Source: Candidatus Zixiibacteriota bacterium
Lineage (GTDB): Bacteria; Zixibacteria; MSB-5A5; GN15; FEB-12
Length of the DNA stretch: 35,841 bases
Assembly: GCA_021163775.1 (NCBI GenBank)
Contig: JAGGTI010000057.1
Location: 1 to 35,841, forward strand
Direction of reading: 5' to 3'
Part shown: one piece after another, positions 1,265-23,701 of the stretch
How the letters are laid out: every line of letters begins with the position of its first letter
How positions within the stretch are numbered: the first letter of the stretch is position 1
Position numbers and translations under genes: made by a program
Notes under the pieces: model-generated
Database searches by the model: none
Seen by the model: only the letters and a program-made list of their open reading frames with translations
Told to the model about the DNA's origin: nothing

Positions 1265-1319
1265 GAGCACCCGACACCACGCAAGTGGGCAAAGCTCATT
1301 CTGTTCCGATCAGCCCCGA

Positions 1320-5684: not shown

Positions 5685-5753
5685 TTTGTGCGTGGTGTAC
5701 GTCCCCGTGCGCCACGAGCTTTGGGGCAGACGAGGGCGTCTGCCACCCACAAA
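5685..5753. repeat. Paired-hairpin intergenic element, class C
   Basis: The outer arms are TTTGTG (5685-5690) and CACAAA (5748-5753). Hairpin 1 is GTGGTGTACG, loop TCCC, CGTGCGCCAC (5692-5715), ten pairs if G-U wobbles count. Hairpin 2 is GGCAGACG, loop AGGG, CGTCTGCC (5725-5744), eight perfect pairs. The GGCAGACG stem recurs at 23663-23681 with another loop. Confidence 0.7.
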
Positions 5754-5965: not shown

Positions 5966-6643
5966 CTATCCGGTCAGTCTGATCAGAAAAGATTCCCCAA
6001 CTACCCGTACCGAGGCCCGTCCAGAGATTATCCGGTTCCGGGTTGATCGCGTCTGGCCACGTTTCACGCATGCCTCACGAACATTATATGCGGTTCCGGT
6101 CCAACTCAACTTGATCAAGGTGGATAGCGGTATAACCGAAACTGTACTGCCAGTGGCTCGTTCGAACCGATGGGTGTTGTTCTTCAGATAAAAAGCCTCA
6201 AAATGAGGTCCCACCAGTCGTAGCTGTGTCGGTCGGGAACGGCTAGGACGGGCTTTTCGAGCCAGCAGGAACAGGTTTGCGAGGAAATGATCGGGATCAC
6301 CAATCGCCGGCTGGATGATATCAATATCCCTGGTTCCTGCATCCAGACAGTGGTCCAGCGCCAGTTCGGTGTCGGTTTGGTCCTTCTCGACCGGGTGAAC
6401 CAGAACCTGAGTTCGAGGCGAGAGGTTGCTCGGTATGCCGCCTAAAGAATCGAGATCGCCTATCAGAAGATGAGGGAACGTTCCTGATCGTGCGAAATAT
6501 CGATATCCGCCGTCAACCGCTACACGTACACGCCCACGGGCAAGTTTTCGAAAGAACCGTACTCGCCCACGGGCAAGTTTTCGATAGAACGGGAAATCTC
6601 TCTCGTAGTATCGCCCAGCCAGAAAAAGAGCATAGTTTTTCAT
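5966..6643 (-). CDS. Thiamine pyrophosphokinase
   Basis: A 225-residue protein with the thiamine diphosphokinase signature: VAVDGGYRYFARSG (about residues 41-54), then PHLLIGDLDSLG, then VEKDQTDTELAL, whose acidic residues bind Mg-ATP in the family. The enzyme transfers pyrophosphate from ATP to thiamine, making the cofactor TPP. The C-terminal beta-sandwich (about 140-225) is present. An 11-residue tandem duplication, RKLARGRVR twice, sits just before the first motif and is unusual; see the repeat at 6531. The start codon lies five bases after the glucokinase stop, suggesting co-transcription, though no clear Shine-Dalgarno is seen. Its product is needed by the transketolase in the same cluster. 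Confidence 0.85.
   Translation of the reverse strand: MKNYALFLAGRYYERDFPFYRKLARGRVRFFRKLARGRVRVAVDGGYRYFARSGTFPHLLIGDLDSLGGIPSNLSPRTQVLVHPVEKDQTDTELALDHCLDAGTRDIDIIQPAIGDPDHFLANLFLLARKARPSRSRPTQLRLVGPHFEAFYLKNNTHRFERATGSTVSVIPLSTLIKLSWTGTAYNVREACVKRGQTRSTRNRIISGRASVRVVGESFLIRLTG
6531..6596. repeat. 33-bp tandem duplication inside the TPK gene
   Basis: Two adjacent 33-bp units begin with CGCCCACGGGCAAGTTTTCG at 6531 and 6564. The first 21 bases are identical and the last third has drifted. Because 33 is a multiple of three, the duplication adds 11 residues and keeps the frame. Confidence 0.9.
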
Positions 6644-10674: not shown

Positions 10675-10724
10675 ACGGCAAGGATACGCATTTTGGCGGA
10701 AGAATCAACCCTATAGATCGTAGA

Positions 10725-10783
10725 TCGGAACCCCTTGTGGTTCCGACAAGTTCCTGTAGCGCAGAACCCCTTGTGGTTCTGCG
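10725..10783. repeat. Two direct class A hairpins with identical loops
   Basis: TCGGAACC, loop CCTTGT, GGTTCCGA (10725-10746) is followed by CGCAGAACC, loop CCTTGT, GGTTCTGCG (10760-10783). The loops are the same. The stems differ at several positions, yet each change is matched in its partner arm. Unlike the other pairs, these two have the same orientation. Confidence 0.85.
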
Positions 10784-10805: not shown

Positions 10806-10868
10806 GTAGGTCGGGCCCACTTGAGGCCCGACGCTTCCTGTGTCAGGCCCCGAGTTGGCCTGACCTAC
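10806..10868. repeat. Paired-hairpin intergenic element, class A
   Basis: The outer arms GTAGGTC (10806-10812) and GACCTAC (10862-10868) enclose two perfect 8-bp hairpins. These are GTCGGGCC, loop CACTTGA, GGCCCGAC (10810-10832) and GTCAGGCC, loop CCGAGTT, GGCCTGAC (10842-10864). The layout and outer-arm sequence match the element at 236-299. Confidence 0.88.
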
Positions 10869-12216: not shown

Positions 12217-13185
12217 TTACGTCTTCCGATTCTCTTTCACTATCCGTGCGGTGTGTTGCAAGCCTTCCAGCTTGGGGCGAGTGAGGGCGGTACCCGCCGT
12301 CATTTCCAAAAACTCTTCGCGGGTGGTCATCGACAAAATCTTTTCAAACGACAAGAACTCCCCAACACCATGATCCGGCATCAACTCATCATGCGCGGTC
12401 AGTATCGAACGATGCTTATTATTATGCGGGCAGACTTCCTGACAAATATCACAACCCAACAGGCTGTGCCTGTTTTGGGCCGCGACAGACTCTGATGTGT
12501 GCAGAGGGTTCTCAACCGTCCAGTACGAAAAGCAGAGCGATGAGTCCACAACGCCATCGGATACAATCGCGCCGGTCGGGCAGGCATCGATACATTTTGT
12601 GCACTTAGCACACCGGCCATGATTGACCGCGTTCGGGTCGTCCGGTTCTAATTCAAGCGTGGTCACAATCTCCGCCAGAAACAACCACGAGCCGAATTTG
12701 CGAGAAATCAACATCCCGTTTTTACCCAGAAACCCCAGCCCTGCTTTCGCGGCGTACGCTCGTTCCATGAACGGCCCGTAATCAACCCACCACTTGAATT
12801 TTTCTGGTGTCGTATCAGGGAATCGCGTAGTGATCAGTTTCAGCAGTTTCTTGATTTTGTTCTCGACGACTTTATGGTAATCGCGACCCCGCGCGTACCG
12901 CGAAACCTGTCCGTACCCCACCGGAACGGAATCGCTGTTCGGCTGGTAATAATTAACCGCCAGCATGATAACCGATTTGGCGTCGATTCCTAACCGACTC
13001 GGGTCGGTCCGCCGCTCAAGGTTTTGTTCTTCTGGCGCCATCCAGTTCATCTCGGCCTGGTAGCCTTTATCCAGCCAGGCCATGAATTGGGCTTGTGCTT
13101 CCGGTATTGGTTCGGCCGAGCAGATACCGCAAAGGTCAAACCCGGCGCGGGCGGCCAGTTGTTTGATATCATCAGACGTTATCAT
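12217..13185 (-). CDS. queG: Epoxyqueuosine reductase
   Basis: A 322-residue cytoplasmic enzyme that reduces epoxyqueuosine to queuosine in tRNA wobble positions, using cobalamin and two 4Fe-4S clusters. The cluster motifs are CAKCTKCIDACPTGAI (about residues 190-205) and GCDICQEVCPHN (about 243-254), as in QueG. Upstream are AARAGFDLCGI near the N-terminus, VNYY and the conserved RYARGRDYHKV. The end KLEGLQHTARIVKENRK is the usual QueG tail; the HEAT-like extension of longer family members is absent. The frame stays open upstream to 13356, but those codons cross hairpin repeats and are unlike the family, so the ATG at 13185 is preferred. Confidence 0.9.
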   Translation of the reverse strand: MITSDDIKQLAARAGFDLCGICSAEPIPEAQAQFMAWLDKGYQAEMNWMAPEEQNLERRTDPSRLGIDAKSVIMLAVNYYQPNSDSVPVGYGQVSRYARGRDYHKVVENKIKKLLKLITTRFPDTTPEKFKWWVDYGPFMERAYAAKAGLGFLGKNGMLISRKFGSWLFLAEIVTTLELEPDDPNAVNHGRCAKCTKCIDACPTGAIVSDGVVDSSLCFSYWTVENPLHTSESVAAQNRHSLLGCDICQEVCPHNNKHRSILTAHDELMPDHGVGEFLSFEKILSMTTREEFLEMTAGTALTRPKLEGLQHTARIVKENRKT

Positions 13186-13210
13186 TATCTGGGAATATAC
13201 AGGTAGGCCC

Positions 13211-13224
13211 GGTTGCTTGCAACC
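13211..13224. repeat. Hairpin with TT loop
   Basis: GGTTGC, loop TT, GCAACC. The core TTGCTTGCAA is shared with the hairpin at 23690-23701, whose outer pair differs (A-T instead of G-C). This is again loop conservation with a compensated stem. Confidence 0.6.
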
Positions 13225-13276
13225 TGACAGAATGTCGAAACCACCAAGGCAACCACAGGTTGGTTGGTTTTTCTGT

Positions 13277-13339
13277 GCCGTCAGGTGACCCTGCCTGACG
13301 GCTCGGAGTGGTGGTTGTCGGGCAGAGTCGCCCGACAAC
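13277..13339. repeat. Paired-hairpin intergenic element, class B
   Basis: Hairpin 1 is GCCGTCAGG, loop TGACCCTG, CCTGACGGC (13277-13302), nine perfect pairs. Hairpin 2 is GTTGTCGGGC, loop AGAGTC, GCCCGACAAC (13314-13339), ten perfect pairs. The outer ends GTGCCGTCAGG and CCCGACAACAC also pair with few mismatches. The same two loops occur in the same order at 21003-21078 and 23520-23595. Confidence 0.88.
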
Positions 13340-13400
13340 ACCCAAACCGGCAACATTGCCAGCGGGTAAAAAATATCTGGTTAGCGCATGAATCCAGGGG

Positions 13401-13428
13401 TTGACGCCCAATTTTAAAGTGTTATTCT
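13401..13428 (+). promoter_or_regulatory. Possible sigma-70-type promoter for the aminotransferase gene
   Basis: TTGACG (13401-13406) and TATTCT (13423-13428) are 16 bases apart and about 50 bases before the ATG at 13477. The match to consensus is fair and there is no experimental support. Confidence 0.35.
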
Positions 13429-13476
13429 GTCTCGCTATAGGAATTGATACAAAACGTTTTTTACGAGGATAGAGAT

Positions 13477-14454
13477 ATGACCACTAACACTAAAAACAAA
13501 CCTGCTGTCGGCTATTCTCAGCTTTCTGACAAAGAAATTCTGGATATGGAACACGCGGCAGGAGCACAGCACTACGGCCGGATTGAACTGATCGTCCGCA
13601 AGACCGAAGGATGCTGGCTCTACGATGACAAAGGTAATAAATATTTTGACTGCTTAGCCGCCTACTCGGCCGCCAACCAGGGCCACCACCATCCCAAGAT
13701 GGTTCAGGCGGTCAAGGATGCTGTCGATGGTCAGTACGGTTCGGTAATCTCCAACGTGGTCTATACCGACTCGCTGGCGATGTTTCTGGATAAAGTCTCC
13801 AACCTTGTGCCGCAACTCGGAACCCGATTTGGGGCCAATGGTAACAAGACCCTGCCGAAAAACGGCGGCGTGGAATCAGTCGAGACCGCAATCAAGCTGG
13901 CGCGTGGCTACGGCTACAAGGCCAAGAATATCCCTGATGGCAAACAGGAGATCATAGTTGCGGGTAACAATTTCCACGGTCGGACAATCACGGTCGTTTC
14001 TTTCTCCAGTGCTGAGAAATACCGCGAAGGTTTCGGGCCGCTAACGCCAGGTTTTATTAACGTGTCTTACGGCGATACCGATGCGGTCAAAAACGCAATA
14101 ACCGAAAATACGTGCGCGATTATGATTGAGCCGATGCAGGGTGAAGGCGGAATGTATATCCCGAAGGAAGGTTTCCTGGGTGAATGCCGCAAACTGGCTG
14201 ACGATAACGAACTATTGTTGATATTTGATGAAATCCAGGTCGGTCTCGGGCGTACCGGCAAGATGTTCTGTTTTGAGCATGAGAATGTTGTGCCGGATGC
14301 TTTGATTCTTGGCAAGGCGATCTCTGGTGGTCTGGTACCGCTTTCGGTTATGGTCACCAATTCCAAGCTGATGGACTGGCGGGATGCACGGCACTTGATA
14401 TTTTGGTTGATGAAGACCTTCCCGGTCGGGCGGCTAAAATGGGCGCGATTCTGA
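13477..14454 (+). CDS. rocD: Ornithine aminotransferase, N-terminal part (gene broken)
   Basis: Class III PLP aminotransferase, closest in motif pattern to ornithine-oxo-acid transaminase, which converts ornithine plus 2-oxoglutarate to glutamate semialdehyde. Seen are DCLAAYSAANQGHHHPKM, NGGVESVETAIKLAR, FHGRTITVVSFSS, IEPMQGEGGMYIP, LLIFDEIQVGLGRTGK and the PLP-lysine motif LGKAISGGLVPLS. After MVTNSKLMDW the sequence leaves the family: the expected HGSTFGGNP stretch is missing and the frame shifts, so the last ~20 residues (RDARHLIFWLMKTFP and on) are out of frame. The rest continues at 14403-14699. The start is the ATG at 13477 with GAGGAT eight bases upstream; an upstream TTG is less likely. 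Confidence 0.82.
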   Translation: MTTNTKNKPAVGYSQLSDKEILDMEHAAGAQHYGRIELIVRKTEGCWLYDDKGNKYFDCLAAYSAANQGHHHPKMVQAVKDAVDGQYGSVISNVVYTDSLAMFLDKVSNLVPQLGTRFGANGNKTLPKNGGVESVETAIKLARGYGYKAKNIPDGKQEIIVAGNNFHGRTITVVSFSSAEKYREGFGPLTPGFINVSYGDTDAVKNAITENTCAIMIEPMQGEGGMYIPKEGFLGECRKLADDNELLLIFDEIQVGLGRTGKMFCFEHENVVPDALILGKAISGGLVPLSVMVTNSKLMDWRDARHLIFWLMKTFPVGRLKWARF

Positions 14455-14699: not shown

Positions 14700-15168
14700 A
14701 AAGCCAAACCAGGAAATATCGGGAAACCGATCAATAAGTCAGCAAACGTGCCCGGCAGATGTAGATATTTACCGGGCACGAAAATATTGCCTAATGACGG
14801 AATTACCAAGGGGTTACATCCTATAAAGCTGATCTGTCGTAGCCATTTTGCGTGGTGTCGGGTGCCCGATACCCAGTGAACAGGCAAGAACAAAAAAGTC
14901 GTTTCTTCTTGACATAATTGAACTTAGGCTTATTTTGATAAATAGAAGTGCATCGCCGAACCAGACACCATTCCTCACTTGAATTGGGTCGGATTGAGAG
15001 CACACTTTTAGTACCCATCACCGCTTTACTACATTGGTTAGCAGATGATAACCGGCTACTGGCAAGACTCTACGTATTTTGATGTTTCTGCTTGTGACAT
15101 GCTCTTGTTTGCGTGTTAACTGCAGTAAGCGGCCTGCTTTCGTAGCTCCGTCCAAAGAAAGGTTCCTC
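14700..15168. other. Gene-free spacer before the first C10 peptidase
   Basis: No supported gene. It contains a long-loop hairpin (CGTGCCCGG at 14747-14755 with CCGGGCACG at 14772-14780, 16-base loop) just after the aminotransferase stop. A fragment GCGTGGTGTCGGGTGC at 14850-14865 matches the left arm of the class B elements and recurs inverted at 1267-1282. Confidence 0.55.
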
Positions 15169-17982
15169 ATGCCCGACAAATCAGCGATAGTACATACCAA
15201 AGTTTGTCATCCAAGGTCTCAGCCGCTATCAGTTTTCAGCCCGTCTTGGTTGATCTCCGCATTGCTGATTCTGGTTCTCAGTTTCCTGTCGATCCCGGTC
15301 GTTCGGGCTGAGTTAGCGTCCGATCTGGAAATGTCAAATGTCGCCGAAAACTGGGTGACCGAGATGACTGCCAAGCGCAGTCAGTGGGCGGGAGACAGTA
15401 ATCCAACTTTGGGGGCTATCCACGATTTGTATTATGAAGACGTATTAGTGGGGCGGTACTATGATGTTTCACCGCGCGGCTATGTTCTGGTGCCCACGCT
15501 CAAAGAGCTAAGCCCGGTAAAATTATATTCGGATGAATCGGACATGGGGCCATCGCAAGAGGGCGGTATGCTCTTGATGATCAAGGAAAGCCTCTACGAA
15601 CGGATGCAACTCCACGCGCAATTGTATGGTTCATACGCCGCCCCTCAACAAATTGGCGGACCACAGCTTTTTGACGCCTCCAATAAAACCAAGTGGGATC
15701 GCCTGGCAGTGTCAGCCAGGGATTACCGACCCACTACGGCGTTGAGTACCATGTCCGAAGGGGTTCCGTTGCTGACAATTAGCTGGCACCAGAGAGCGCC
15801 GTATTACAATGACTGTCCGATGGGCGATGGTGGTCGAACGGTGGTCGGTTGTGTGGCTACCGCGACGGCTCAGATTATGAAATTTTGGGAATGGCCGGAG
15901 ACCGGTATAGGATTTTTGGGATACGTGTGGGGAGGCGATCATTCTTGCGGTGGCTCAACTCCCTCTCAGTCATTGACCGCAGATCTCAGCGACCCGTATG
16001 ACTGGGCCAATATCCCGGATGACTGTAACGGTGGTTGTTCCAGTGCTCAGAACGACGCTCTGGCCGAACTGAATTATGAAGTTGGTGTTGCTCACCAGAT
16101 GGATTACGGTGCCTGTGGTTCAGGTGCCTGGACCGGTCGCGCCGCATATATTCTGCCTACTTACTTTAAGTACAAGAACACAACTGAAATAGTGAATCGG
16201 AATCAGTATACCCAGCAGGAATGGTTTAACTTGGTGGTACAGGAAGTCGAAGCAGGACGGCCGATTCAGTACCGCATTAATATGCATTCCATTGTCTGTG
16301 ACGGCTGGCGCGATCAGGGTGGCGGACAGCTTGAGTTTCACATGAACTACGGTTGGAACGAAGGCCACACTACCTGGTACCTGTTGGACAATCTGTACTG
16401 TAGTTGGATTGAGGGCGATATCTGTCCCTACGACGAAGAATATATGATAATTGGGATCGAGCCGCAGAGCGAACCGGCCCTTGAATATGTGAATACAGGC
16501 GTCTCTGATCCGACCGGCAACGGGAATGGTCATGGCGAACCGGGTGAAACGCTGGAAGTGTTGACAACAATTAAGAACACGGGTAATAACGCCACCAGCA
16601 TTACCGGAACTCTATCCAGCACTGACCCATATCTCACGGTTGTCTCGGGTGGTTCCACGTATGATCCATCAATTGCCTGGGGTGAACAGGCGACCAACCA
16701 GACAGCTTACACCGTGTCTATCGACCCCGCTTGTCCCGATCCCTACATTGGCAGTTTGAGTATCGCTGTTACGGCCGATGGTGGTGCACCGATAGATGGG
16801 ACTTTTCAGGTTTTTGTTGGTACCAGTAGAGGCCTTGAAGACGATTTTGAGGCGGGCGAAGGTGACTGGACTCATTTAGCCCCGATTTCTTCGTATAATG
16901 ACCAGTGGCACATGGAAAATTACCGCTACCATAGCGGTTCTTATAGTTGGAAGGTGGGGGGGGACGGTCCGGCTGAGTATTTCAATAGTGTTGATGCCGC
17001 CCTGTTGACGCCACCCCTGTTGTTGGCTGTCGATAGCAAGCTCCACTTCTGGCATTGGATGGACGCTGAAACGGACGGTCCGGCTGCCGCTTGGGATGGC
17101 GGAGCGGTCTATATCAGTGAAAACGGTGGCGCATGGACTCAGGTAATACCTGAAGGTGACTATCCGTATGTTGTAACTGGGGGGAGTTCTATCGGAATTG
17201 GACCGGGCAACCCTTGTTACTCTGGAAGTTTTGGCTGGACCGAAGCGGTTTTCGATCTATCCGAGTACTCCGGGGTGGTGCAGATTATGTTCCGTTTTTG
17301 TTCTGATGGTGGCGTAACCGAGGAAGGTTGGTATGTTGATGATGTTTGGATCGGTAACACTCCGGCTGGTTCCGGGGTGACGGTGACCGACACAAACGGT
17401 GCGTCCGTTGCCTACGATATCGTTCTTGTTCGCGGCAATACCTCGTTTACTATTTCCGAAGATTCTCCCGCACCGCTGGCCGGTTTCGCTCCTGTGCCGG
17501 AGGCCACACCAGAGTACTATGAAATTGCAACGGATGCGACTTTTACCGGTAATGCTCATATCTGTCTGCCCTACAATGAAACCGGCGTGGTTGGCGACGA
17601 AAATGAATTATTGATGATGTGCTACGCTGGTGATGAATGGGTTAACGTGACGGAGTCACTCGATATAGAAGCGAACAATATCTGCGGTCAAACCAGTGCG
17701 TTGTCGACTTTTGTCGTGACGGAATTGACCTCATGTTGTTCCAATCGTGTGGGTGATGCCAATATGTTGGGTGGTGATGAACCTACCATTGGCGATATAA
17801 GTGCCTTGGTTGAGATGCTGTTCCTGACCGGAACCGAGGTGGCCTGCCTGCCCGAGGCGGATGTCAACCAATCGGGAGGATTCAACCCGGCCCAGAATGA
17901 TGTTACCATCAGTGATATTTCTATCCTTGTGGACTATCTTTTCATTACGGGATCGAGTTTGGGATTGGCTGATTGCATGTGA
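15169..17982 (+). CDS. Secreted C10 (streptopain-like) cysteine peptidase with dockerin-like tail
   Basis: A 937-residue exported protease. There is a long signal peptide (1-47, ending VVRA), a propeptide (about 48-185) and a peptidase C10 domain with Cys228 in VVGCVATATAQIM and His373 in MHSIVCDGW, the motif pair of SpeB/streptopain. FHMNYGWN, common after the His, is present. Then come a CARDB-like beta domain (about 433-550), a MAM/immune-inhibitor-A-like jelly roll (about 553-730, ending WYVDDVWIGNT) and two dockerin-like repeats (about 855-937: VGDAN, EPTIGDIS, EADVNQSGG, TISDISILVDYLF). It probably cleaves external protein and is held at the surface or in a complex. The start is the ATG with AAAGAAAGG upstream; an earlier in-frame ATG would spoil the signal peptide. 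Confidence 0.87.
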   Translation: MPDKSAIVHTKVCHPRSQPLSVFSPSWLISALLILVLSFLSIPVVRAELASDLEMSNVAENWVTEMTAKRSQWAGDSNPTLGAIHDLYYEDVLVGRYYDVSPRGYVLVPTLKELSPVKLYSDESDMGPSQEGGMLLMIKESLYERMQLHAQLYGSYAAPQQIGGPQLFDASNKTKWDRLAVSARDYRPTTALSTMSEGVPLLTISWHQRAPYYNDCPMGDGGRTVVGCVATATAQIMKFWEWPETGIGFLGYVWGGDHSCGGSTPSQSLTADLSDPYDWANIPDDCNGGCSSAQNDALAELNYEVGVAHQMDYGACGSGAWTGRAAYILPTYFKYKNTTEIVNRNQYTQQEWFNLVVQEVEAGRPIQYRINMHSIVCDGWRDQGGGQLEFHMNYGWNEGHTTWYLLDNLYCSWIEGDICPYDEEYMIIGIEPQSEPALEYVNTGVSDPTGNGNGHGEPGETLEVLTTIKNTGNNATSITGTLSSTDPYLTVVSGGSTYDPSIAWGEQATNQTAYTVSIDPACPDPYIGSLSIAVTADGGAPIDGTFQVFVGTSRGLEDDFEAGEGDWTHLAPISSYNDQWHMENYRYHSGSYSWKVGGDGPAEYFNSVDAALLTPPLLLAVDSKLHFWHWMDAETDGPAAAWDGGAVYISENGGAWTQVIPEGDYPYVVTGGSSIGIGPGNPCYSGSFGWTEAVFDLSEYSGVVQIMFRFCSDGGVTEEGWYVDDVWIGNTPAGSGVTVTDTNGASVAYDIVLVRGNTSFTISEDSPAPLAGFAPVPEATPEYYEIATDATFTGNAHICLPYNETGVVGDENELLMMCYAGDEWVNVTESLDIEANNICGQTSALSTFVVTELTSCCSNRVGDANMLGGDEPTIGDISALVEMLFLTGTEVACLPEADVNQSGGFNPAQNDVTISDISILVDYLFITGSSLGLADCM

Positions 17983-18102: not shown

Positions 18103-20919
18103 ATGTCAACTAAACGTGAGATGAAACATGTGCGTACATTGGTGAATTGCGGGATGATTCGCGGGTGTATTGGAGTGCTTCTGGTTGCCGTTATTCTGGT
18201 CGCCGGTGTGAGCAACTCGGTACTGGCGGAACTTGCAACGAACGTTGAAATGGAAAATGTCGCCCAAAACTGGGTGGTCGAGATGACTGCCAAGCGCAGT
18301 CAGTGGGCAGGAGCAAGCAACCCTGCTATTACCGAAGGCCATGAGCTTCGCCAGGATGGACGCTTATTGGCTCGTTATTACGATGTGTCGCCCCAGGGTT
18401 TTGTGGTCGTCCCAGTTCTCAAAGAGATGAATCCGGTGGTTATGTATTCGGATGAATCGATACTTGACGCATCACAGGAAGGCGGCATGCTCCAGCTTTT
18501 GAGGGATATGATTTCATCAAGGCTTGATATGTATGAGAGCGCTTTCGGCACCCTGAACGCAACCCAACCGACTGGTGGTGAGACTTTATTCGATTCACAT
18601 CAGAAAGCGAACTGGACGCGTCTGGCTGTCGATAGTCGGGCTTTCCGAACCGACCAATCATTGAGTGTGAGTGCCATTGAAGAGGTTGGGCCACTGCTTA
18701 CTTCAAGCTGGCATCAGAGTGCGCCGTATAACAATTCCTGCCCAGCCGGCGATGGGGGAACTTGTGTGGTCGGTTGCACCGCTACCTCGCTTTCACAGAT
18801 ACTCGATTATTGGGAGTGGCCGGAAAACGGTGTCGGTAGCCATTCGTACTACTGGGGTGGCGATGATTGCAACGGGGGATATGTTCCGGGTCAAACTCTG
18901 ACTGCCGATTTCTCCGATAGCTACGACTGGGCCAACATGCCGGACAGTTGTGACGGCGTAACGCCCTGCACTCAGGCTCAGGAAGATGCTTTGGCTGAAT
19001 TGTGTCATGAGGCCGGAGTGGCGGTGAACATGAACTACAGCAACTGTGGCTCGGGCGCCAGCATGAACATGGATGTGTTCCCGACCTATTTTAAGTACAG
19101 CCCCAATATTGCTCGGGAGTACCGGATCAACCACACTGTTCAGAGTTGGTTCGAAGTTATTCAGGACGAGGTGAATGCCGGGCGGGTTATGTGGTACGGA
19201 ATACATTCCCACGCCATTGTCTGCGATGGCTGGCGTGACCAGGGTGGCGGGCAGTTGGAAATGCACCTGAACTATGGCTGGGGCCAGGGAAACAACGCCT
19301 GGTATGTGCTTGATAATTTGTACTGTGGCTGGGTTGAGGGTGACATCTGTCCCTACGAGGTAGAACATGTAACGACGCACATGGAGCCGCAGTATGTTCC
19401 GGCGATGGTCTTTGTAGGTAAGGGTGTGAATGAGACCATCGGCGATGGCGATGGACTGATTGAAGCCGGGGAGACGGTTCAAGTTGATGTAACGGTTAAG
19501 AATCTCGGCAACTATGCGGTCAACGCCACTGGTACGCTGAGTTCATCGGATGCTAACGCCAACATTACGGTTGCTTCGACAACATTTGCGGCCTCTTTTG
19601 GATGGGGCGAAGAAAGCAGTTCTCAGAGTTCGTTTACAGTGGAGATCGACCCGGCCTGTCCCGATCCACATGTTATTGTATTCGATCTACAGATTACAGC
19701 CGATGGCGGTTATCTCACGACTGAGACGTTTCTCTTGTTCGTTGGAGAGACACCCGGTTGGTCGGATGACCTTGAGGGTGATGTCAGTCTCTGGGCACAC
19801 GATGCGATCCGACTGGCTTATGTCGATGAGTGGCATATGGAGACATACCGGGCGCACAGCGGTAGCAGTTCCTGGAAAGCCGGTGGTGCAGGAGACACAA
19901 ACCATTCTGATGCGTCCGATGGCGGCCTTGTAACCCAGCCCTTCCTACTGCCGGTCGATGCCAAATTAACTTTCTGGCACTGGATGGAGGCGGAAGACGA
20001 CGTTGGCATGACCGCCTGGGATGGATCCATTCTGATGATCTCAACCGGTGATGGTAACTGGACCCAGATCGATCCTGTCGGTGGCTATCCCTATACGATA
20101 ATAGACAATGACGCCAGCCCGTTCGCTCCGGGGACACCATGTTACTCGGGAAGCTTTGGCTGGACCGAGGCGACATTTGATCTTTCCGAGTATTCCGGAG
20201 TAGTCCAGATCATGTTCCGATTTGGCTCTGACGGAGCCGTCAATTTCGAGGGCTGGTATGTCGATGACATTTGGATCGGCAATACACTGGTTGGGTCCAA
20301 TGTTGAGGTCAATCCAGCTCCAGACGTGACGCTCACGTTTACTGAGGTGACAGAACCAGGCATTACAACTGTCACTAGTGGCCCCACTGGTCCGGGAGTC
20401 CCCGTAGGTATGATTGCGGTCCCGGCCGACCCGGTTACTTATCACGATATTGTCACTGACGCCGTGTTCTCTGGCGTGATCGATATTTGTTTTGACTACG
20501 ATGAAGGCGATGTTACTGGCGACGAGAACGACATGACCCTGCAACATTACGACGGCAGTCAGTGGACCGATATCGCCTATCTGTTAGACACTGACGCCAA
20601 TTCGATATGCGGCTTGACTACATCGCTGTCGCCATTTCTCCTCGCAGTCGAGAGTGCCGGTTGTTGTCTGGATCGAGTTGGTGACGCCAACGGTATAGGG
20701 GGTGACGAACCGACGATTGGTGATGTCAGCGTGATGATCGATGCCAAGTTCATTACCGGTACCTGTGAAGGTATCCTGGCGTGCATGGCCGAAGCCGATG
20801 TCAACCAGTCCGGCGGTAGTGATCCGATTTGCGGTGATATTACAATTGGAGATATTTCAGTACTGATCGACTATTTGTTCATCACCGGAGTTACGCTCGG
20901 TTTGCCGAGCTGTTTGTAG
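18103..20919 (+). CDS. Second secreted C10 cysteine peptidase with dockerin-like tail
   Basis: A 938-residue paralogue of the preceding gene, with the same order of parts: signal peptide (about 1-42, ending SVLA), propeptide starting ELATNVEMENVAQNWV, and C10 domain with Cys225 in VVGCTATSLSQI and His370 in SHAIVCDGW followed by MHLNYGWG. CARDB-like (about 430-545) and MAM-like jelly-roll (about 550-730) domains follow, then two dockerin-like repeats (about 853-938). The propeptide and jelly roll are nearly word-for-word copies (MTAKRSQWAG; LSEYSGVVQIMFRF), showing tandem duplication and divergence. Its last ~35 codons lie within a 286-bp block almost identical to the end of the next gene. 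A gap of 120 bases separates it from its paralogue. Confidence 0.87.
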   Translation: MSTKREMKHVRTLVNCGMIRGCIGVLLVAVILVAGVSNSVLAELATNVEMENVAQNWVVEMTAKRSQWAGASNPAITEGHELRQDGRLLARYYDVSPQGFVVVPVLKEMNPVVMYSDESILDASQEGGMLQLLRDMISSRLDMYESAFGTLNATQPTGGETLFDSHQKANWTRLAVDSRAFRTDQSLSVSAIEEVGPLLTSSWHQSAPYNNSCPAGDGGTCVVGCTATSLSQILDYWEWPENGVGSHSYYWGGDDCNGGYVPGQTLTADFSDSYDWANMPDSCDGVTPCTQAQEDALAELCHEAGVAVNMNYSNCGSGASMNMDVFPTYFKYSPNIAREYRINHTVQSWFEVIQDEVNAGRVMWYGIHSHAIVCDGWRDQGGGQLEMHLNYGWGQGNNAWYVLDNLYCGWVEGDICPYEVEHVTTHMEPQYVPAMVFVGKGVNETIGDGDGLIEAGETVQVDVTVKNLGNYAVNATGTLSSSDANANITVASTTFAASFGWGEESSSQSSFTVEIDPACPDPHVIVFDLQITADGGYLTTETFLLFVGETPGWSDDLEGDVSLWAHDAIRLAYVDEWHMETYRAHSGSSSWKAGGAGDTNHSDASDGGLVTQPFLLPVDAKLTFWHWMEAEDDVGMTAWDGSILMISTGDGNWTQIDPVGGYPYTIIDNDASPFAPGTPCYSGSFGWTEATFDLSEYSGVVQIMFRFGSDGAVNFEGWYVDDIWIGNTLVGSNVEVNPAPDVTLTFTEVTEPGITTVTSGPTGPGVPVGMIAVPADPVTYHDIVTDAVFSGVIDICFDYDEGDVTGDENDMTLQHYDGSQWTDIAYLLDTDANSICGLTTSLSPFLLAVESAGCCLDRVGDANGIGGDEPTIGDVSVMIDAKFITGTCEGILACMAEADVNQSGGSDPICGDITIGDISVLIDYLFITGVTLGLPSCL

Positions 20920-20923
20920 ATTT

Positions 20924-20978
20924 GTTGGATCCACTTGAGGCCCGACGTTTTTGGTGTCACGCCCCGAGTAGGCGTGAC
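20924..20978. repeat. Class A paired hairpins downstream of the second C10 gene
   Basis: Hairpin 1 is GTTGGATC, loop CACTTGA, GGCCCGAC (one mismatch, two wobbles). Hairpin 2 is GTCACGCC, loop CCGAGTA, GGCGTGAC (perfect). The loops match those at 10818 and 10850, while the second stem has a compensated change (AC/GT instead of AG/CT). It begins five bases after the stop codon. The same sequence recurs at 23441-23495. Confidence 0.85.
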
Positions 20979-21002
20979 CTGCTGACTCATTTGTTTTACG
21001 TG

Positions 21003-21078
21003 GTGTCGGGTGACCCTGCCCGACACCCGGTGAACAGACACGAACAGACAAAAACTGTTAGGCAGAGTCGCCTGACAG
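21003..21078. repeat. Class B paired hairpins
   Basis: Hairpin 1 is GTGTCGGG, loop TGACCCTG, CCCGACAC (21003-21026). Hairpin 2 is CTGTTAGGC, loop AGAGTC, GCCTGACAG (21055-21078) with one G-U pair. The loops are identical to those at 13286 and 13324, but the stems are different. Flanking GTGGTGTCGGG and CCTGACAGCAC pair over most of their length. Confidence 0.88.
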
Positions 21079-21138
21079 CACAAATGTGGTTCCGACGTTG
21101 CTCTGGTTCTGCCTGAGTGTTTGTAGTTGAGGATAGTC

Positions 21139-23436
21139 ATGTCGGTATTGATTAAACTGTTTGCTATCGGTTGCTTCCTTATTGGTGGAACGGCGCAGAG
21201 TGCCGACGTACCCCTGGGTACGATGCCGTTCTGGTCGACATCGGAGCAGAATATCTACTCCACCGGTATGATCTGGCGTGACTGCAATCGTGATGGCGTC
21301 ATTGATGTTTTCTACTCGAATGGCAACGATATCGTGCAGGCCGCGAACAATATCTACCTGTTTGGGGGTGACCAATTCCCGGTTTCGGCCGCCTGGTACT
21401 CTTCGAATCAGGAATACTCCGGTCACTGTGCCGTGGGCGATATCAATGACGATGGTTATCCCGACCTGATGGTATCAGACTACCTCGGTTCCGGTTTTAG
21501 TGATCCCAATCAATCAGAATTCTATCTCAACGATGGTGGTTTGCCCAACGCCATCCCGGTTTGGAGCACGCCCGATCTCATTTTTTCATTTTCGTGTGCC
21601 TTCGGTGATGTCGACGGCGACGGCGATCTTGATGTTGCTTTTGCCACTGGTGAAGGTTACCAAAATGACTACCAGCAGGATATTATCTATCTCAATGTCG
21701 ATGGTAATTTCTCCAACAGTATCTACTGGAATTCGGATGCTGTCGGCGCGTCAATGGATGTCGCTTGGGGTGATGTTGACAACGACGGCGATCTGGATCT
21801 GGCCTTCACTTATGACGCCACTGCCACCTCGGTCTACTACAATGACAACGGGGTCATGGAAACCACACCGTCCTGGCAGGCCGGTACGACCGAGTCGGGG
21901 AATACTTTGGTGTTTGGTGATGTTAACGGCGATGGCTGGCTTGATCTGATGGTAGCCTACAACAATCAGCTCGGTGGCGGTGGTCGGTTTCGGGTTTATT
22001 TCAACGACGGAGCCGGCAATCTCGACCCTAACTATGGCTGGCAATCGAGTACCGGCGGTTACGGTTCGGCGTTGGCGCTGGGCGATTACGACAACGATGG
22101 CGACTACGACCTGGCCACCGGACGCTGGTGGAGCACATTATGGGTGTACGAAAACCTCGGTACCACTTTCACGACAGCCCCTGTCTGGACTTCCGGGCTG
22201 GAGTGTGTGGCCGAAGAATTGGCCTGGGTTGATATTGACGGTGCGAGTGTAGTATCGCTGATCGATACGCTACCTATGGATGGTAGCAGGAAGCTGTTTT
22301 ACACCGAGTATCAGCCACTGTATGAAGTCGATTCGGTCTATGCCGATGGTAGCAAACTCGGCTACGCTGACTACTGTTACGATCTGGTCTCCGGCTGGGT
22401 GTCACTGGCTGAAGCGCCGACTACCGAGGCGGTCTGTTTTTATCGCTACTCGTTCCACAACGACCTGGCCGTTAGCAACTGGGATACTGTGAATTTTGTC
22501 TTTGCCAACACCAACCCGCCGTTAGTGGATATAACTGTCGCCAATGCCTTTGGCCCGGTACCGCTGACGGTTCAGTTTGATGATAACTCAGTTGGCGCCT
22601 ATGAATGGTCGTGGGATTTCGGCGATGGCGAGACATCGGCCGATCAGAACCCGTTGTACGAATATACCCAACCGGGTCGCTATGACGTTACGCTGGAGAT
22701 CACAACTCCCGAAAGAAATTACACACGGGTTTTTGATGACCTGGTCTCGGTCTATGCCGACACTCTCTGGATGGAGAAAGTGGCATTTGTAGATAACAAG
22801 GCACGAGTTGACGTGTACGCTTATAACTATATGCCTCTGTCGGAGATTATCATTCCGTTTTCGTGGGACGGCCCTCTGGATGTGCGGTTTGATTCGATTT
22901 CAGTCAACGGGTTACGGACCGAATACTTTGATACGCATGGAGTCATTGATTTGGTGACAGTTCTGGACGCCGCTACCGTGCGATTGGCGGTCGGTACGCA
23001 GGCACCGCTTGAGCCTGGCACCGGATCGATAGTTTCATTGTACTTCACCTACTTGGGGAGTGAAACCTCCGGTTCATCCCCGATCAGATTCTGGAATTAT
23101 GACACGCGCGAACTGAGTCTGTTATGTCCGGCTGGTTACTATGTGTCGGAAACTATCGATGGAGCGGTGGTTCTTGACTGCTGTTTGAGTCGAGTTGGTG
23201 ACGTTAACGGTGAGGGTGGCGACGAACCAACAATCGGTGATGTTAGTTGCCTTATCGATGCTGTATTCATCACCGGCAATTGTGAGGGTGTCATTGACTG
23301 TTTGGCCGAGGCTGACATAAACCAATCCGGTGGTAGTGATCCGATCTGCGATGATATTACAATTGGAGATATTTCAGTACTGATCGACTATTTGTTCATC
23401 ACAGGAGTTACGCTCGGTTTGCCGAGCTGTTTGTAG
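21139..23436 (+). CDS. Secreted VCBS/FG-GAP and PKD protein with cohesin-like and dockerin-like modules
   Basis: A 765-residue exported protein, probably non-enzymatic. Parts in order: signal peptide (1-22), then VCBS/FG-GAP-type repeats (about 90-330) with calcium-binding Asp motifs DVDGDGDLDV, DVDNDGDLDL, DVNGDGWLDL and DYDNDGDYDL, likely a beta-propeller. Next come a PKD domain (about 463-540, WDFGDGETS), a cohesin-like beta domain (about 541-675, IIPFSWDGPLDVRFDS and GTGSIVSLYFTY) and two dockerin-like repeats (about 680-765). It may be an adhesin or scaffold. The start is the ATG with GAGGAT seven bases upstream; an in-frame TTG four codons earlier is less likely. The gene is bracketed by 286-bp direct repeats, the first ending 39 bases before its ATG. 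Confidence 0.85.
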   Translation: MSVLIKLFAIGCFLIGGTAQSADVPLGTMPFWSTSEQNIYSTGMIWRDCNRDGVIDVFYSNGNDIVQAANNIYLFGGDQFPVSAAWYSSNQEYSGHCAVGDINDDGYPDLMVSDYLGSGFSDPNQSEFYLNDGGLPNAIPVWSTPDLIFSFSCAFGDVDGDGDLDVAFATGEGYQNDYQQDIIYLNVDGNFSNSIYWNSDAVGASMDVAWGDVDNDGDLDLAFTYDATATSVYYNDNGVMETTPSWQAGTTESGNTLVFGDVNGDGWLDLMVAYNNQLGGGGRFRVYFNDGAGNLDPNYGWQSSTGGYGSALALGDYDNDGDYDLATGRWWSTLWVYENLGTTFTTAPVWTSGLECVAEELAWVDIDGASVVSLIDTLPMDGSRKLFYTEYQPLYEVDSVYADGSKLGYADYCYDLVSGWVSLAEAPTTEAVCFYRYSFHNDLAVSNWDTVNFVFANTNPPLVDITVANAFGPVPLTVQFDDNSVGAYEWSWDFGDGETSADQNPLYEYTQPGRYDVTLEITTPERNYTRVFDDLVSVYADTLWMEKVAFVDNKARVDVYAYNYMPLSEIIIPFSWDGPLDVRFDSISVNGLRTEYFDTHGVIDLVTVLDAATVRLAVGTQAPLEPGTGSIVSLYFTYLGSETSGSSPIRFWNYDTRELSLLCPAGYYVSETIDGAVVLDCCLSRVGDVNGEGGDEPTIGDVSCLIDAVFITGNCEGVIDCLAEADINQSGGSDPICDDITIGDISVLIDYLFITGVTLGLPSCL

Positions 23437-23617
23437 ATTTGTTGGATCCACTTGAGGCCCGACGTTTTTGGTGTCACGCCCCGAGTAGGCGTGACCTGCT
23501 GACTCATTTGTTTTACGTGGTGTCGGGTGACCCTGCCCGACACCCGGTGAACAGACACGAACAGACAAAAACTGTTAGGCAGAGTCGCCTGACAGCACAA
23601 ATGTGGTTCCGACGTTG
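23332..23617. repeat. 286-bp direct repeat, copy 2
   Basis: Second copy of the block at 20815-21100, 283 of 286 bases the same. The last 214 bases (after 23403) are fully identical, including non-coding hairpins at 23441-23495 (class A) and 23520-23595 (class B). Such identity in non-coding DNA, beside dockerin codons that diverge sharply just upstream, points to recent duplication or gene conversion. Confidence 0.95.
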
Positions 23618-23662: not shown

Positions 23663-23701
23663 GGCAGACGTCTCGTCTGCCTCAAAGTGATTGCTTGCAA
23701 T
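23663..23701. repeat. Two small hairpins (class C and TT-loop)
   Basis: GGCAGACG, loop TCT, CGTCTGCC (23663-23681) shares its stem with the hairpin at 5725-5744. ATTGC, loop TT, GCAAT (23690-23701) shares its core with 13211-13224. Confidence 0.6.

Follow-up and report, generated by a model that had tools for sequence, protein, structure and literature searches.

The paired hairpins termed class B here, found in a 35,841-nucleotide stretch of DNA from Candidatus Zixiibacteriota (the window), are very probably REPIN/BIME-type elements, that is, non-autonomous units that a dedicated RAYT copies (RAYTs are single-strand DNA transposases of the HUH/Y1 type); a small bacterial enzyme probably copies this repeat around the genome. 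Our data establish a repeat family and its structure, the covariation of its stems, its mostly extragenic location, the movement of the pair as one and, in related genomes, the linkage of its arms to one RAYT clade. Because it lacks a GT[AG]G head, though it is REPIN-like in its working, we file class B as a variant. The kind of element is ordinary; what stands out is its fixed two-ended build and the combination of a conserved stem with a variable loop. Both the link to a RAYT transposase and the conservation of stems rather than loops across genera are absent from the initial annotation of this DNA.

A class B arm is 28 nt long (GTG, stem, loop, stem and 1 nt, with a stem of 8 to 9 bp reading NYGTCRGG), and a doublet is made of two inverted arms with their GTG tags outward and a short spacer between them, 59 to 82 nt in total. 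The three hairpin pairs of the initial annotation were all located at their places in the window, with the loops described, and its view of the unit as an inverted duplication of one hairpin is borne out by the second hairpin, which resembles the first once reverse-complemented. The class B features of the window are these:

13275..13341, minus strand by stem type: doublet copy 1, 67 nt, sub-type with swapped loops
13275..13302, plus strand: CAGG-stem arm of copy 1, GTGC foot, loop TGACCCTG; covariance model 45.0 bits
13314..13341, minus strand: CGGG-stem arm of copy 1, GTGT foot, CGACTC-type loop; 46 bits
21000..21081, plus strand: doublet copy 2, 82 nt
21000..21027, plus strand: CGGG-stem arm of copy 2, GTGG foot; 45.2 bits
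21054..21081, minus strand: CAGG-stem arm of copy 2, GTGC foot, one mismatched pair; 43.6 bits
23517..23598, plus strand: doublet copy 3, 82 nt, arms 23517-23544 (plus) and 23571-23598 (minus); the same insertion as copy 2
14852..14873, plus strand: lone arm, loop deleted, decay product; covariance model 20.3 bits, E 0.001
1267..1282, minus strand: truncated arm fragment, 16 nt; exact match, no covariance-model match at E≤5

The six arms of the three doublets score 43.6 to 46 bits (E 4e-11 to 2e-10 for the window), a match that holds by construction since the covariance model was built from arms including these types; the six real arms compare with 0 to 1 in each of 20 shuffled windows. Loop order is the same in all three copies, as first described, but their relative orientation is not: the 13.3-kb copy is reversed by stem (CGGG versus CAGG), with the loops swapped between the stems. 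Position 4 of its CGGG arm (13314..13341) is a T-A pair, and the mismatched pair of the second hairpin is found at both 21.0 and 23.5 kb. Copy 1 lies in the gap from which a QueG-like gene (minus strand, start near 13185) and a class-III aminotransferase gene (plus strand) diverge, and copy 2 stands between genes for a C10 peptidase (18103-20919) and for an FG-GAP/PKD protein (21127-23436). When single-stranded DNA is folded, the 13.3-kb unit is predicted to form two hairpins on either strand (z of -5.5 and -6.0), and the 21.0-kb unit one long hairpin on the plus strand and separate hairpins on the minus strand. Elsewhere in the window, adjacent C10-peptidase paralogues occupy 15079-17982 and 18103-20919, the secreted-type genes downstream of this pair (FG-GAP/PKD and papain-family/PKD) share a common repeat in their C-terminal ends, and a 33-nt unit occurs twice in tandem, 94% identical, within an ORF at 6525-6590.

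The three copies had been taken as independent, which does not hold for the last two. Copies 2 and 3 agree in 239 of 240 bases over 20840-21079 and its duplicate 2,517 nt downstream; this identity reaches into the end of the upstream gene, and the coding sequence just before the block is only ~70 to 80% identical, so that copies 2 and 3 are a single insertion, multiplied by local duplication or gene conversion. A class A pair does precede the class B pair directly, as reported, but as one duplicated event seen twice. If such local duplication were all there is and the family itself immobile, a reading to which this block lends itself, copies would not be expected on dozens of contigs, in at least 13 of 61 genomes and amid unrelated flanks; these already refute it, and we give it a negligible probability. 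Of the solitary pieces, the supposed half-arm at 14850-14865 is really a whole arm with a shrunken loop (14852-14873). The idea of decay products is upheld by this loop-deleted arm and by the truncated fragment at 1267-1282, and that of a separate half-arm insertion form finds no support, the pieces being loop-deleted or truncated arms. Solitary, loop-deleted and truncated arms are decayed copies.

The family extends well beyond the window. The genome of origin (G000; 2.37 Mb in 130 contigs, 77% complete) holds 74 exact copies of the 12-base core GGYGACYCTGCC, compared to 1 for the pattern read backwards; the genome-wide search suggested at the outset thus yields many further copies, and a lack of additional copies, the outcome that had been named as telling against the proposal, is not what we find. 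Among 146 genomes (G000 and 145 others), only G001, of the same genus, comes close to G000, its cores outnumbering the control 44 to 1; the next highest, G063, has 10 to 0. The exact full-pair pattern has 17 matches in G000, none in 60 relatives and none in a wider genome-contig collection, from which G000 itself may be missing; used alone, this search is misleading on the spread of the family, since the single-arm search reveals the copies of the relatives. At the loci fetched around core matches, all 33 adjacent arm pairs are inverted head-out and 30 of them join a CGGG-stem to a CAGG-stem arm; a second scanner with other cut-offs returned 32 pairs, 30 of them head-out, of which 28 have both stem types. 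Two sub-types can be told apart: (i) units of ~72 nt whose CGGG arm carries the loop TGACCC and whose CAGG arm carries CGACTC, and (ii) units of 59 to 67 nt with the loops swapped between the stems, to which the 13.3-kb copy belongs; mixed forms occur too. The covariance model matches G000 101 times, a count that includes opposite-strand matches of one hairpin and is confined to first-pass places (123 scored). Solitary arms are numerous, as they are in G001. Some copies are not independent because they are embedded in longer repeats of ~130 to 215 nt, 84 to 95% identical and several of them at contig ends (L013, L028, L071, L073, L074 and L080); this composite repeat may break the assembly.

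In 21 arms selected from four genomes, 98.4% of the stem cells are paired and five of the nine pairs have changed on both sides, with 24 double-changed cells, where shuffles give 7.4 and slid structures no more than 2. In G000, 62 of 71 arms start with GTG, and position 4 (G in 37, C in 28, T in 6) is paired with position 27 in 65 of the 71. The bases upstream of 50 arms (T at -4 in 38; T in 35 or C in 11 at -3; T or C at -1 in 45) give a foot reading TYNY-GTG. With this foot and loops of 6 to 8 nt, class B does not conform to CGTC-tagged REPs, which have an unpaired CGTC tag, stems of 8 to 9 bp and loops of 4 to 5, nor does it to canonical ones, since GT(A/G)G is not an unpaired foot and GT[AG]G is missing in half of the arms. 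It does share with REP doublets the inverted pair, the extragenic location and a copy number of tens to hundreds: arms fall within ORFs of at least 150 aa in 4 of 31 cases in G000 and 5 of 33 in G001, compared to 75% and 77% of random positions (simple ORF calls on a subset of loci, 18 of the G000 sources).

Stable hairpins in intergenic gaps, with covarying stems, would suit RNA as well, and the pairs could then be terminators or mRNA-stabilising hairpins at gene ends, repeated by selection and not by movement. However, the 13.3-kb unit lies between divergent gene starts rather than gene ends, its arms (13275-13341) have no terminator-like match, no Rfam family covers the pairs, the spacers are identical amid unrelated flanks, and linkage to one RAYT clade would be unexpected; this makes RNA elements very unlikely. 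The two candidates behind these searches were rejected, the intrinsic terminator (a GC-rich hairpin with a run of T after it) on a scan of 13100-13500, which covered the 13.3-kb unit only, and an Rfam family because the sole match in the window is a tRNA.

The unit moves as a whole, as identical units amid unrelated flanks show. Two copies on contig C69 match in all 70 of 70 nt, including the spacer, and their flanks part within ~4 bases of GTG and CAC; likewise, the units of C56 and C23 agree in 72 of 72 nt and those of C50 and C58 in 71 of 72, with largely unrelated flanks. Identical spacers between unrelated flanks point to copying. The comparison of empty and filled sites, also proposed earlier, yields presence/absence differences in both directions between G000 and G001: the gap that holds the 13.3-kb unit measures 215 nt in the window and 149 nt, without arms, in G001, and a G001 arm at C1:61230 sits in a 139-nt gap whose counterpart in the window is 56 nt. 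These differences are at the level of gaps only, because the DNA of the two genomes (~70% identical) is too diverged for a base-exact site. No base-exact empty site, excision product or target duplication was seen, which counts against the reading as a RAYT-copied REPIN. Not all copies are recent, since the site at 45.0 kb of G000 contig C2 is matched by a degenerate arm at the orthologous position of G001.

The enzyme is indicated by the relatives. On contig C77 of G001, exact inverted class B arms bracket a Y1_Tnp gene, and the closest relatives of this RAYT in 61 genomes, those of G013 (59%) and G018 (55%), have on both sides hairpins that share the GTG foot and the two stems and differ in their loops. 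A RAYT gene between two inverted REPs is the layout of a REPtron, described for REPs and RAYTs (PMC2817692, PMC6006769). We scanned 47 distinct RAYT loci (57 sources minus 9 repeats of a place and 1 without a RAYT); strong arm matches occur at five, which are the five closest relatives of the G001 protein (Fisher p 6.5e-7), and at none of the other 42. Counting weak arm-like matches near the RAYTs L120 and L136 (E 8e-4 and 9e-4), p becomes 1.4e-5. Arms stand on both sides at L112, L116, L117 and L199 and on one side only at L201. Two of the five linked RAYTs are frameshifted, one of them, in G030, being the one with arms on one side; these two clade genes, L199 (G018:C18) and L201 (G030:C1), each lie in two frames, broken yet arm-flanked. 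The three intact ones form one clade (support 100/99, tree of 41 intact RAYTs). Their membership of the RAYT family follows from matches of L112, L116 and L117 to NF047646, REP-associated tyrosine transposase (93 to 102 bits, cut-off 80), and of the clade protein to the solved TnpAREP 4er8 (E 2.7e-10). H61/H63 and Y119, which we take to be the HUH and catalytic residues of the clade, are invariant in all three. Two further loci were recorded: L218, a 46-residue RAYT piece with 54% identity and no arms, and L200 (G029:C10:84000-86000), where ~520 nt separate two inverted arms, as they would in a RAYT unit; tblastn detected no RAYT between them, and the pair is perhaps the remnant of such a unit.

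Short units with two inverted, sharp ends also recall a MITE or another terminal-inverted-repeat element, moved by a non-RAYT transposase with the dimorphic arms as its TIRs, and RAYT-like genes with TIRs unrelated to GTAG repeats have been described (PMC3733652). Here, though, every arm forms a hairpin of its own with a foot on one side, many arms are solitary, as in G001, and a RAYT stands between such arms in four genomes (G001, G013 and G018, with G030 one-sided), so we regard a MITE as extremely unlikely. The spread of the family was measured with a covariance model of the arm at E≤0.01. At least 10 arm matches occur in 13 of 61 genomes, of which 12 are among the 37 of the same family and 1 is among the 24 from the rest of the order; all four genomes with a clade RAYT belong to these 13. 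Nine of the 57 genomes without a clade RAYT have at least 10 arm matches as well, some of these genomes being nearly complete (G020, G029 and G036). This counts against a dedicated RAYT and suggests that arms can outlast the gene or that another enzyme serves them. Stems are constant across genera and loops vary, and a definition of the family by its loop pair was dropped for this reason. G000 has six Y1_Tnp genes, which have other hairpins nearby and no class B arms; a RAYT of the class B clade was not found in this 77% complete genome (best match 41%, with other flanking hairpins), which likewise counts against the main reading, and the G001 RAYT neighborhood is unmatched in it, although an empty answer of such a search is not proof of absence. 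Its own RAYT would either lie in the unassembled part or have been lost. A search of the genome-contig collection with the RAYT returned no close relative, the best match (35%) being in a Zixibacteria bin.

The two arms of a doublet differ systematically. Among the best-scoring model places, we took 60 further stretches from ten genomes, which yield two head-to-tail pairs and, in six genomes, 13 head-out ones. Each of these 13 combines a GTGG end with a GTGC end, and the rule holds in G021, G024 and G001 even though the other stem difference is absent there; in G000, 26 of 30 pairs follow it. Part of the asymmetry may go back to a single ancestral pair from which all descend, but loops and other stem bases have since changed. 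A second reading, which we hold to be possible but doubtful, is that the doublet is a polar two-ended mobile unit whose ends, if the foot guides cutting, would select different cut sites, by analogy with the left and right ends of IS200/IS605. For TnpAREP, the foot tetranucleotide can set the cut dinucleotide, and such a guide role of the foot is reported for some REPs and for IS200/IS605 (PMC8266576). Where the E. coli enzyme has the guide contacts Q95, H101 and R104, the clade has M99, a V/V/V-type 105 and F/Y/T108, changes in step with two differently read ends; the fourth base, however, forms a stem pair, and this argues against a role for it as an unpaired guide. Should the unit prove polar, this would supply a functional reason for REP heterodimers, a preference that one survey describes as lacking an obvious explanation (PMC3733652).

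In the mechanism that we envisage for a RAYT-copied doublet, each arm would fold when its own strand becomes single-stranded in replication, the RAYT would recognise the GTG foot and the stem, cut near the foot (T-Y-N-Y precedes both arms) and re-insert the doublet elsewhere. Class B represents a REP family outside the usual tags that spans many genera of one family and belongs with one RAYT clade. Its stem and foot stay fixed while the loops turn over, which offers a natural experiment on the features that a RAYT recognises, and with the conserved GTGG/GTGC asymmetry the heterodimer question can be tested directly.

Other hairpin families occur as well. The window contains class A pairs at 10806-10868, 20924-20980 and 23441-23497 (GTAG-GTCGGGCC(CACTTGA)GGCCCGAC); at 10.8 kb the inverted partner, GTAG-GTCAGGCC(AACTCGG)GGCCTGAC, makes the pair a REP doublet with the canonical GTAG head. 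Class D hairpins (GGCAGACG..CGTCTGCC) lie at 5725-5744 and 23663-23681, and the same hairpin flanks a RAYT of G000 on C22 (L031). Hairpins of the form GTAG..GGAACCCCTTG..GGTTCC at 236-295 and 10720-10783 probably form another REP family. Near RAYTs, we saw a hairpin with loop CCACTTGGA in G039 (L120), GGCAGATG hairpins flanking those of G030, G055 and G056, and, on G000:C86 (L032, L033), a RAYT gene and its neighbor in tandem duplicate with CCCACAG hairpins on their flanks. In our literature search, no paper joined REPs with Zixibacteria, and no other paper dealt with REP heterodimers together with guide sequences.

Four known systems bear comparison with class B. The REPINs of Pseudomonas fluorescens SBW25 (Bertels and Rainey 2011, PMC3116915) are likewise inverted doublets of ~70 nt, extragenic and in many copies, with outer ends most conserved, single arms as decay products and ties to specific RAYTs; class B differs from them in its GTG foot with a paired fourth position and in arms that are systematically unlike, and its short spacer and mostly separately folding arms contrast with the single long hairpin drawn for the SBW25 consensus. 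The gammaproteobacterial REP-RAYT units (Nunvar et al. 2010, PMC2817692) share the RAYT between two inverted REPs, RAYT and REP changing together, and dimorphic REPs are listed there, as seen here. Those REPs are all headed by GT(A/G)G, however, whereas the CAGG arms of class B carry GTGC, and the stem of class B is kept over many genera while its loops change. The GTAG and CGTC superfamilies with their HH heterodimers (Di Nocera et al. 2013, PMC3733652) resemble class B in their head-out, non-identical arms, in spacers of ~20 nt and in the presence of several REP families per genome; the class B tag is neither of the two, and its rule, one GTGG and one GTGC end, holds in several genera. Finally, the atypical REP-like hairpins that Quentin et al. 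(2018, PMC6006769) describe for TnpAY1 subclass 2.6 and class 3 are alike in flanking RAYT-like genes, in lacking a GT[AG]G foot and in having genomic copies; the class 3 foot, CnGA, and structures described as weaker set them apart from class B.
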